A stretch of DNA of 64,000 nt from Clavibacter capsici (GTDB lineage: Bacteria; Actinomycetota; Actinomycetes; Actinomycetales; Microbacteriaceae). Positions 16,372 to 22,848 of this stretch are shown one piece after another; the stretch's first letter is position 1; the number at the start of each line of letters is the position of its first letter. The stretch covers positions 2,294,001 to 2,358,000 of the forward strand of contig NZ_CP012573.1 in assembly GCF_001280205.1 (NCBI RefSeq), written 5' to 3'. A model generated the notes under the pieces. The model ran no database searches. It was not told the DNA's origin and saw only the letters and a program-made list of their open reading frames with translations. The translations under genes and the position numbers were made by a program.

Positions 16372-16417
16372 CCGACCAGGGACATCACGCCGCGCCGACC
16401 GGCGACGCGTCCCACGG

Positions 16418-16552
16418 TCAGTTGTTGAACCGGAACTCAACAACAACAGGATCCCACACGACGGACTCGATGCTCTCGATGGGTGCCTTGCCCTTCGAGT
16501 GCTCCTCGGCAAGGCTGGCGGTCCAGACCAGAATCGCCTTTGACGCCGCTGA
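16418..16552 (-). pseudogene. Divergent ychF 3'-end remnant A
   Basis: The minus-strand frame between a stop at 16553-16555 and TGA 16418-16420 reads TASLAEEHSKGKAPIE near 16480-16529 and ends VVVEFRFNN. Over 32 gap-free positions it matches 20 residues of the C-terminus of the intact YchF in this window (TGSIAEARSKGKARIE ... DVVEFRF). It has no start and no G domain. The remainder of 16372-16840 is AT-rich and holds nothing else I can identify apart from the promoter region of the next gene. Confidence 0.7.
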
Positions 16553-16840
16553 CTAACTCGAATACGTCCGACCGCGGCCACGACGAGGCGGGCTGTATGT
16601 GAATGAGTAGAACAAAGCGACGAGCGCGTAGTTGATAGGCAAGTCAATCGTCGCGGCCAACTCGCAAAGTTTGGCCGTCGACCGACGTAACAAATCAACT
16701 CAGCTCGAAATCTGACATACAAGCACTGCCTTTCATATGAACCGTAGCCAAGGCGTCGGATTACCAGGGCACTTAGCACCATTACTGTTCAGCATCGGCA
16801 CGCCTATGCAGCCGACTCCTGTCAAGAGTATCATAAATAG

Positions 16841-19844: not shown

Positions 19845-21703
19845 TCGTCGGCGCTTTCATCGGGACCGACTTCACCCCTCAGAACAAAGAGGGCGTGGTC
19901 GAGCAGCACCTTCTCGAGATCGGAGCGCGCGAGGCGCGAGTAGTCGGTCTCCATATAAGCCTCGGCAACCCACTCGGCGTCGGCACCGACCGTCTGCATC
20001 ACAGCCTGGCCTGGGTGGACCTCGCGGTTGCGGAACATCTCGATCCAGCGATTTCGCACGTCCGGCCAGGTGTGGTCCTTGTCCACTCGGCCAAGGTTCT
20101 TGACCTTGCTGAAGTTGTCGTCACGCCAGTAACCGAACCAGGTCTTGCGGTCAGACTTTGCGTGCGGAACGCCAGAGGTGAACACCATGATGCAGGTGAT
20201 GACACCCACCGGGTAGAACAGCTCGGGCGGCATCGACATGACAGCCTCAAGCGTGTGCTTCTTCAGCAGGTTTTTCTTAAGGACGCTCGAGCCCGTCGCG
20301 CACGAGACGGGCACAATTGCAATGCCGGTCCCGCCTTTCTCAAGGCTGTCGAGCATCTGTTCGACGAATCGTAGCTCGTGGAGGTCCTCTTTTGATTTCG
20401 CGTAGGGCGGATTGACCATGCCTATGTTGGCCTTGTGCTCCTTCACGCCCTTCGCGATTGCGGTGTCGAAGCATGACCCCTGGTAGAGGTTCGCCTTGCC
20501 ATCACCGCGCAGGATCATATTAGATGCGCCAAGAGCGTACATGCTCGGATTCTGCTCGACGCCAATTAGACGGTTCTGCTTGATGTCAAGCACTTCGGCC
20601 TCGGTCGTAGCCGTCTTAACCATCTGAACCATTGACGATATTAGGAAACCGCCCGTGCCGGCGCAGATGTCGAGGACCTTGTCTTCCTTGCTGACGTTGG
20701 CGATCAGGCCGAATAACTCGGTCACGTGGCGTGGCGTGAGGACGATACCTAAGCCCTTACCGTCGCCACCGGTGTATTTTAAAAACTCGCCGTAGAACGC
20801 ACCGACGACGTCGAAGTCGTGGTAGATAGTCAGGAATGGCATGACTTTTTCGGCAAGCATGGAGACAATTTCGTTGAGCACGCCTTTGGGGTAGCCCTTC
20901 GTGGGCTTGCGCAACTCCGGGTGAACCTGGATTCCAGTGAACGGCTGAGTCATGTTCTCGAGCTTTGCGACCGGCAGTTTTGCCTCGCGGATGACGCGCT
21001 TGATCGACTGAATCCAGAACTCCGGAAGCTCACTCGCGGGATACGAGTCGTACGTCTTCGCGAAGATCTGGTCCTTCAGCGCGATCAGCGTCCCGGCGAC
21101 CGCTAGAGGCTTCTCCTTCTCTTCGAGCTCAGCCTCGTCGCGCATGAATTCGTGCATCTCCATGGAAAACGCAATGAGATCTCGCTCGCGCTGACGCTGG
21201 ACTCGCGGGTCAAACGATGCGGCGGCGATTAAGTCGCTCAACCCGATTAAGGCAGCAACCGGCGCACCGGTGGCCGAAACAAGGTCATGTTCCTGAGACG
21301 ATCCTTTCGGCGTGACAAAGAATGACCACTCGTTTGACTGAGATGTACCAGATACCGCGATTGAGATGACCGTGTAAGCTGGCGATAGATATCTGGCGTA
21401 GTGGAGCACGCCGTCGACGGCGTAGTCTCGCGCCAGATCGCGGTTGGCCGACTCGTGCTGCCTAACATCAGCCTTGCATTCGATCAGCACGACCATGTCT
21501 GGCGTGGCCGGCGCCGTGATGATGAACTCGGGATAACCGGCGGCCTTGCCCTTGCCAGTCTTCGATGCCCTGGAAAGACCTTTTCGTATTTCCTGCACAA
21601 GCGATTGTTGCTTCTCGACGACGATGTCGTCCGGATCGTCGTAGTAGCCCAGCTCGCGAAGGCTGGTCTCCACCAGGTCCTCAGTGACGCGCTCATTGAC
21701 CAT
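19841..21703 (-). CDS. BcgI-like bifunctional restriction endonuclease/N6-adenine methyltransferase (type IIB)
   Basis: 620 residues, close to BcgI A (about 637). The N-terminal nuclease module (about 40-130) carries PE59, D69 and E75-C-K77, a PD-(D/E)XK layout. A helical connector (about 170-300) follows. The methyltransferase domain has TPRHV (323-327), SAM motif I VLDICAGTGG (343-352) and catalytic NPPY (431-434) of gamma-type N6-adenine enzymes. In the BcgI family such an enzyme methylates, or cuts on both sides of, a bipartite site with its S partner. Lower GC than the host genes; ATG 21703 sits about 50 bp from the ychF stop. Confidence 0.87.
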   Translation of the reverse strand: MVNERVTEDLVETSLRELGYYDDPDDIVVEKQQSLVQEIRKGLSRASKTGKGKAAGYPEFIITAPATPDMVVLIECKADVRQHESANRDLARDYAVDGVLHYARYLSPAYTVISIAVSGTSQSNEWSFFVTPKGSSQEHDLVSATGAPVAALIGLSDLIAAASFDPRVQRQRERDLIAFSMEMHEFMRDEAELEEKEKPLAVAGTLIALKDQIFAKTYDSYPASELPEFWIQSIKRVIREAKLPVAKLENMTQPFTGIQVHPELRKPTKGYPKGVLNEIVSMLAEKVMPFLTIYHDFDVVGAFYGEFLKYTGGDGKGLGIVLTPRHVTELFGLIANVSKEDKVLDICAGTGGFLISSMVQMVKTATTEAEVLDIKQNRLIGVEQNPSMYALGASNMILRGDGKANLYQGSCFDTAIAKGVKEHKANIGMVNPPYAKSKEDLHELRFVEQMLDSLEKGGTGIAIVPVSCATGSSVLKKNLLKKHTLEAVMSMPPELFYPVGVITCIMVFTSGVPHAKSDRKTWFGYWRDDNFSKVKNLGRVDKDHTWPDVRNRWIEMFRNREVHPGQAVMQTVGADAEWVAEAYMETDYSRLARSDLEKVLLDHALFVLRGEVGPDESADE

Positions 21704-21753
21704 CGATTACACGTCCCTGCCCCGCGCGGACAGCACCAGACGGGAATGTTTCA

Positions 21754-22848
21754 TCATTTGCTTCCGGCCCCCGAGGTTCCTCCGAACCGGAACTCCACAA
21801 CGTCCCCGTCCTGCATGACGTACTCCTTGCCCTCGATGCGGGCCTTGCCCTTGGAGCGCGCCTCGGCGATGGAGCCGGTCTCGACCAGGTCGTCGTAGGA
21901 GATGACCTCGGCCTTGATGAAGCCCTTCTCGAAGTCGGTGTGGATCACGCCGGCCGCCTGCGGGGCCTTCCAGCCACGGCCGATGGTCCAGGCCCGCGTC
22001 TCCTTCGGGCCCGCCGTCAGGTAGGTCTGCAGGCCGAGGGTCTCGAAGCCGATGCGGGCGAGCTGGTCGAGGCCCGACTCCTCCTGGCCGGTGCTCGCGA
22101 GCATCTCGGCGGCGTCCTCGGGGTCGAGCTCGATGAGCTCCGACTCGATCTTCGCGTCGAGGAACACGGCCTGCGCGGGCGCCACGAGGGCGGCCAGCTC
22201 GGCGAGCTTGCCCTTGTCGCCGAGCACCTGCTCGTCGACGTTGAACACGTAGATGAAGGGCTTCGCGGTCAGCAGGCCGAGCTCGCGGACGGGCTCGAGG
22301 TCGATCTTCGACGCCGACAGCGGCTTGCCCGAGTCGAGCCACTCGCGCGCGGCCTTCGCGGTCTCGAGCACGATCGGCTCGATGCGCTTCGTCTTCAGCT
22401 CCTTCTCGTAGCGCGGCTCGGCGCGCTCGAGGGTCTGCAGGTCGGCGAGGATCAGCTCGGTGTTGATGGTCTCCATGTCGCTCGCGGCGTCCACGCGGCC
22501 GTCGACGTGCACGACGTCCTCGTCCTCGAAGCCGCGGACGACCTGCGCGATGGCGTCGGCCTCGCGGATGTTCGCGAGGAACTGGTTGCCGAGGCCCTCA
22601 CCCTCGCTCGCGCCGCGGACGATGCCCGCGATGTCGACGAAGGAGACGGGGGCGGGCAGGATCCGCTCGGAGCCGAAGAGGCCGGCGAGCACCTCGAGGC
22701 GCGGGTCCGGCAGGTTCACCACGCCCACGTTCGGCTCGATCGTCGCGAACGGGTAGTTCGCGGCGAGCACCTGGTTCTTGGTCAGGGCGTTGAAGAGCGT
22801 CGACTTGCCGACGTTGGGGAGACCGACGATCGCGATAGTGAGAGCCAC
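21754..22848 (-). CDS. ychF: Redox-regulated ATPase YchF/OLA1
   Basis: 364 residues, normal length (about 363). G1 motif GLPNVGKST, G3 region VDIAGIVRGASEGEGLG, and NVDE in place of the usual NKxD, which explains ATP rather than GTP preference in this Obg-family branch. The C-terminal TGS-like domain contains VIHTDFEKGFIKAEVISYDD. It acts on ribosomes or the translation stress response. GTG 22848 lies 8 nt after TACGAT. Its 3' end is the anchor of the defence island; duplicated ends lie at 16418-16552 and 18545-18772. Confidence 0.97.
   Translation of the reverse strand: MALTIAIVGLPNVGKSTLFNALTKNQVLAANYPFATIEPNVGVVNLPDPRLEVLAGLFGSERILPAPVSFVDIAGIVRGASEGEGLGNQFLANIREADAIAQVVRGFEDEDVVHVDGRVDAASDMETINTELILADLQTLERAEPRYEKELKTKRIEPIVLETAKAAREWLDSGKPLSASKIDLEPVRELGLLTAKPFIYVFNVDEQVLGDKGKLAELAALVAPAQAVFLDAKIESELIELDPEDAAEMLASTGQEESGLDQLARIGFETLGLQTYLTAGPKETRAWTIGRGWKAPQAAGVIHTDFEKGFIKAEVISYDDLVETGSIAEARSKGKARIEGKEYVMQDGDVVEFRFGGTSGAGSK

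Follow-up and report, generated by a model that had tools for sequence, protein, structure and literature searches.

Results

This study deals with the 3' end of the gene ychF in Clavibacter capsici (contig NZ_CP012573.1) and with the restriction-type genes that lie beside it. The stretch analyzed, here called the window, comprises 64,000 nt (positions 2,294,001 to 2,358,000 of the forward strand), and its coordinates are counted from the first letter. Within it, ychF and a SCO1664-family gene enclose 5.4 kb with a GC content of mostly 51-64%, versus ~67-78% in the surroundings. Three versions of the ychF 3' end (the intact gene and two remnants, A and B) lie there in direct orientation, with one gene between A and B and a BcgI-like restriction pair between B and ychF. 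This layout had been proposed from the letters alone (the original prediction); it was borne out by nucleotide alignments, PF06071 and a protein search for the ychF ends, and by open reading frames (ORFs), PADLOC and Pfam for the genes in between. The stretch next to ychF is termed unit 1 and the one beyond it unit 2:

15622-16371, plus strand: SCO1664-family gene, the conserved far border (TIGR03843, 355.6 bits, cut-off 172.4), present in 18/18 genus intervals
16372-16417, no strand: native spacer of the empty site, 39/46 nt identical to the spacer of genome G005
16418-16531, minus strand: remnant A, ychF codons ~320-358 with the native tail (FNN*), core at 16431-16441 with one mismatch
16841-18328, plus strand: GapS1-like protein, 495 aa, cargo of unit 2 (NCBIfam NF047931)
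18538-18554, minus strand: FRHS-type tail CCACAGCTAGGCATTTG, end of unit 2 proximal to ychF, which also ends ychF in other genera
18555-18565, minus strand: core of remnant B, decayed to GTGGTGCTCTG; its 21-nt site has 3 mismatches
18557-18772, minus strand: remnant B, ychF codons ~281-353, distal end of unit 1
18843-19844, minus strand: specificity subunit, 333 aa, cargo of unit 1 (PADLOC Specificity_II 2.6e-37; PF01420 7.8e-16)
19841-21703, minus strand: type IIG/BcgI-like restriction enzyme-methyltransferase, 620 aa, cargo of unit 1 (PADLOC REase_MTase_IIG 2.4e-107; PF02384 3.1e-26)
21754-21787, minus strand: foreign ychF tail (FGGTSGAGSK*), 34 nt, end of unit 1 proximal to ychF
21788-21798, minus strand: core GTGGAGTTCCG of the intact ychF
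21754-22848, minus strand: intact ychF, the anchor gene (PF06071, PF01926)

Judged by family matches, unit 1 is predicted to encode both parts of a BcgI-like (type IIB/IIG) system, the fused restriction-methyltransferase and the specificity subunit. The protein of unit 2 appears from its profile match to be a distant relative of GapS1: it aligns with NF047931 across residues 19-404 (E 7.9e-29) and differs in its score of 100.8 bits, under the curated cut-off of 320, and neither Pfam nor PADLOC gave a match up to E 0.1.

Remnant B aligns with ychF over 216 nt without a gap (18557-18772 versus 21790-22005, 87% identity, same orientation) and matches the YchF C-terminal domain PF06071 at 2e-23, and remnant A aligns over 105 nt (16427-16531 versus 21784-21888, 75%, same orientation) and was found by protein search at 6.3e-4 with 55% identity. 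Identity to the nearest ychF of the own genus amounted to 0.90 for B and 0.75 for A, versus 0.82 and 0.67 for the compared loci of other genera, so that a foreign-genus source of the two scars could be ruled out and the remnants passed the alignment check of the original prediction; G006, whose ychF reads in two frames, was excluded from this and from the mosaic comparison below. Since nonsynonymous codon changes outnumber synonymous ones (16 versus 8 in B, 13 versus 5 in A), we take the remnants, on the strength of these alignments, to be decayed ychF ends of the own genus. Remnant A runs on into a spacer that matches the empty-site genome G005 and, because it combines native tail and native spacer, would represent the original end and the oldest join.

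The interval was compared across 18 genomes of the genus, the window's own being G000. ychF and the SCO1664-family gene bound it in all 18; the site is empty in G005 only, with 46 bp between the two stop codons, and holds 642-15,011 bp in the other 17. As expected from the original prediction, empty, variable and multiply occupied sites were encountered. Little DNA was common to the intervals in an all-against-all comparison: G000 shares ychF fragments with G010 and the spacer with G005, and a HigB/HigA-like pair that is whole in G001 is split by 4.5 kb in G004 (locus L038) and reduced to its last 128 nt in G016 (L045), where new cargo cuts the older antitoxin gene and the far join lies outside ychF. 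By family matches, from cargo scans of 35 of the 63 listed ORFs against Pfam and 13 against PADLOC, clear restriction or defence-candidate genes are present in ten of the 17 occupied intervals (G000, G002, G004, G006, G008, G012, G013, G014, G016, and G017), with weaker defence matches in G003, G007, and G011 and a toxin-antitoxin-like pair in G001, while the interval genes of G009, G010, and G015 gave no family match. PF00589, which covers tyrosine integrases including the integron IntI, had no match in any of the 18 intervals, ruling out a tyrosine integrase as the general agent, and 17 of the 18 lack a recombinase domain. In G017 (L039), a decayed SCO1664-family 3' end lies within the first 313 nt past ychF, at empty-site distance (score 72 versus 39 for the best of 20 shuffles), with the intact gene 8.4 kb away; this genome has an additional core-like site with 3 mismatches. 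A SCO1664-end match in G008 (64 versus 46 shuffled) showed no such register and was taken for composition.

The native ychF of the genus ends in FRFNN*, whereas that of the window ends in FGGTSGAGSK*, so the description of this gene as intact applies to its body, the last 34 nt (21754-21787) not being the native genus end. Its last 267 coding nt before the tail are 95-99% identical to those of the other 17 genus genomes, all of which lack the FGGTSGAGSK* tail; the GGTSG pattern was seen in the window only, that is, in one of 396 genomes of the family, and a similar end (HGGTSGTGKK*) in G645 from another family of the order. The ychF of G008 ends in FRHS*, on a ychF body that stays like its genus; in the family, this ending takes the place of the native one in ten genomes from nine genera; G250 and G197, with no complete ychF on the stretch examined, are outside these ten, and an FRHS pattern in G041 was discarded as it does not lie at ychF. 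Remnant B ends in a decayed FRHS*, a third kind besides native and GGTSG, which suggests that unit 2 was already beside ychF when unit 1 arrived. The ychF genes of the window and of G008 diverge directly past GTGGAGTTCCG, a core whose distance to the stop codon ranges from 7 to 31 nt with the type of tail. The original prediction, which had suggested aligning the three 3' ends to define any shared core site, could not see this short core, the point of tail exchange, nor the recombinase genes beside it in relatives. Among the 16 of 18 genus genomes with the native end, identity drops from 96.9% over the last 90 coding nt to 27.2%, chance level, over the first 20 nt past the stop (120 pairs), but this drop is no proof of a fixed site by itself because the native spacer measures only 46 bp and any intergenic insertion joins there.

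Downstream of ychF, the exact core occurred 11 times in forward and 0 times in reverse orientation (31 loci, 200,469 nt), and with one mismatch 28 versus 4 times (reversed control 2 and 1); sites with up to 3 mismatches numbered 19 versus 0 for the native-tail type and 6 versus 0 for the FRHS type. Some counted cores fall within longer ychF fragments, and the other-genus loci were picked because they showed the FRHS motif or additional ychF ends, which is why these counts are not frequency estimates; G018 (copies looking like contig overlap) and G197, G250, and G183 (no full ychF) were left out. Such cores can follow one another in a row: G055 has six within 5.9 kb (L134, oriented 1789-7642; up to 3 mismatches, ychF's own included, two exact), most of them separated by one or two small genes, and G272 has five, ychF's own included, likewise with up to 3 mismatches. 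G082 carries an exact 23-nt repeat of the core that is accompanied by no other ychF sequence. In the family sample, the YchF C-terminal query matched a second time in 15 of the 388 genomes outside the own genus, several of them at contig ends. At L111 and L112 of G018, ychF copies at contig starts resemble assembly overlap.

The ychF-like stretch of the scars varies from ~55 to 430 nt, and a fixed breakpoint within ychF was ruled out, 13 aligned remnants starting at ~nt 640 to 1014 as judged by eye. Four recent scars in other genera show 61 differences from the intact gene, and these stem from two functional alleles, since most of the differences (45) are at third positions. The ychF of the window is a mosaic, being nearest to G008/G009 over the first 264 nt and to G002 over nt 616 to 968.

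Genes for large serine recombinases (LSRs) start beside a ychF-tail core in seven genomes, with ychF on the same contig in six of them; in the seventh, G156, the stretch examined does not include ychF. In G008, the LSR (433 aa, PF00239 and PF07508) begins 24 nt away from a native-tailed core. Its 79% identical relative in G092 occupies the same place in a 7.7-kb element, those of G330 (74%), G156 (42%), and G272 (44%) lie at the same position within ~40 nt of a core, that of Microbacterium hominis (78%) follows directly past an FRHS-ended ychF, and that of G645 lies at an LSR island, 12 kb from the ychF with the window-like end. Relatives of this LSR are present in at least 12 of the 396 family genomes, those of G008, G092, G330, and G156 being among these 12 and the G272 LSR not; in G640 the LSR starts at the contig end and no core adjoins it. 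LSR relatives in plasmid and phage records were all <60% identical. Judged by eye, ATGCCTAAC and GTTAGGCAT, the outer arms on either side of the core, form an inverted repeat, as they would at an LSR site. The G092 locus (L130) encodes, from ychF up to the core located at oriented position 10050, a 631-aa protein that we read as primase-polymerase-like, together with a small serine resolvase and the LSR; this compact element looks like an autonomous member of the group. In IMG/VR, the FRHS site had 0 matches and the arm pattern 2, on contigs without a match to ychF or LSR; these two look like chance, and a viral reservoir with attP found no support in this search.

Discussion

We regard the 3' end of ychF as a genuine attachment hotspot belonging to a known class, for which the exact route taken in the window is inferred. 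Newcomers leave the ychF body and the core in place, part of the genomes gaining a new tail and stop codon, and stacked units are separated by ychF ends that bear a core; many units hold restriction or other defence-type genes. Relatives provide an empty site (G005) and, in seven cases, a recombinase gene at the core; the junction on the ychF side is fixed and cores form direct repeats, while the far side varies in many loci, with G017 as the exception to the fixed junction. We consider it probable that the last codons of ychF with the core GTGGAGTTCCG serve as a chromosomal attachment site and that the window reached its present state by two arrivals. According to this account, LSRs in relatives would have made the original insertions, a role read from their position only, and the small units devoid of a recombinase would be cut-down or trans-mobilized derivatives of LSR elements. 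The GapS1-like unit with its FRHS tail would have arrived first and the BcgI-like unit with its GGTSG tail second, stacked upon it, each imported together with a genus ychF end via homologous recombination in ychF and each joined at its far end within the ychF of the recipient, leaving scars A and B.

Several observations weigh against this account. The interval of the window, as the original prediction had stated, yielded no tyrosine or serine recombinase domain in the profile search, and an extra ychF end or near-exact core was found in only four of the 17 occupied genus intervals (G000, G008, G010, and G011). The GGTSG tail, with two cases in all, is ruled out as a common type. Eight of the 12 LSR relatives (39-54% identical) have no adjacent core, and neither a free circle nor an attP turned up. 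In G307 (L103), a tyrosine integrase in two frames lies directly past ychF (C1:2627389-2627878), with a 300-nt ychF scar 12 kb off, so that recombinases of more than one type may act at ychF. Later cargo in G004 interrupts an older antitoxin gene and the older join in G017 is on the ychF side; for these reasons ychF is not the sole place of arrival, and a strict order with the newest unit beside ychF is broken. The stepwise accretion at ychF proposed originally is supported, among other things by the passage of remnant A into the native spacer, but not every arrival used ychF. Finally, scars A and B hold ~100-215 nt of ychF before the core, a length that the action of a serine recombinase at the core does not by itself account for. 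Given the variable far joins, the mosaic ychF and the mirror-image scar in G017, which looks anchored in SCO1664, the window scars probably derive from recombination anchored in a flanking gene: one-sided homologous recombination in ychF combined with an illegitimate far join would explain their features. A given ychF-like scar may either stem from the recipient, as a displaced end, or have come in with the unit.

The balance between the two processes may be drawn differently. Site-specific recombination at the core could have inserted all units, those of the window too, the ychF stretch before the core being the unit's own arm acquired from an earlier host. Both window scars indeed keep an in-register core and tails of known types, and arms unrelated to ychF precede cores in G008, G092, G078, G399, G055, G272, G082, and G330, as well as in G017 with 3 mismatches; but an arm of ~55 to 430 nt of ychF, own-genus-like in the window, is unlike a recombinase arm, and we regard this variant as unlikely, though it deserves serious consideration. 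At the other extreme, homologous recombination in the flanking genes alone might swap the interval, with cores and tails as passengers. While the mosaic ychF, the variable far joins, the SCO1664 scar of G017 and the 17 of 18 genus intervals free of recombinase domains all fit such a scheme, it leaves seven LSR genes starting at a ychF-tail core, an FRHS tail common to several genera on the genus-like ychF body of G008, and the bare 23-nt repeat in G082 to be accounted for, which makes it rather doubtful.

Phages inserting at icd provide a precedent for an integrase that cuts within a gene and carries a replacement 3' end, and the broken integrase of G307 with its distant scar would suit a tyrosine integrase acting likewise within ychF; the lack of PF00589 matches throughout the genus intervals and the inconstant breakpoints within ychF render this improbable. 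A tandem duplication of the ychF end within the host, followed by gene insertions and involving no mobile element, can draw on the resemblance of the window scars to ychF of the genus, yet the tails differ and recur across genera, and the four recent scars, with their two functional alleles, largely refute it for the loci concerned; we give it hardly any credence.

The site offers a fixed address, such that new defence systems in these bacteria could be found by reading past ychF. It also assigns a predicted target to a group of recombinases, the scars make the order of arrival readable, and the spread of small defence genes lacking a recombinase becomes testable. A more far-reaching idea, which we put forward tentatively and would not yet favor, is that the ychF end is home to a serine-recombinase gene-cassette system, in which cassettes of one or two genes bounded by ychF-tail cores are arrayed and moved in trans by rare LSR-bearing members across genera and families, an actinobacterial trading post for defence genes akin to integrons and the staphylococcal cassette chromosome (SCC).

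In two papers on Streptococcus pneumoniae (PMC8637289, PMC10383233), prophages and satellite prophages are described at a 26-bp attB that lies on the upstream side of ychF, with a DUF951 gene as its other neighbor. Hence ychF adjoins mobile elements in both cases, the pneumococcal site being upstream and ours at the 3' end. A published account of the ychF 3' end as an attachment site was not recognized among the papers listed by the literature search, preprints and most subscription papers lying outside that search, which agrees with the statement in the original prediction that none was known. The site differs from an integron, as IntI is missing and the 18 genus intervals are free of PF00589. 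Defence hotspots between conserved genes have the same two core neighbors while the cargo varies by genome; the ychF site shares these features, and in addition its tails are exchanged at a short core, next to which relatives carry a recombinase gene. SCC inserts at the 3' end of rlmH via serine recombinases (ccrA/ccrB/ccrC). Here the gene is ychF, the host belongs to another phylum, and the ychF scars hold long gene fragments. The likeness lies in the serine recombinases (the LSRs being placed by PF00239 and PF07508), the use of the end of a conserved, still functional gene, the composite tandem units with and without a recombinase, and the restriction and defence cargo.
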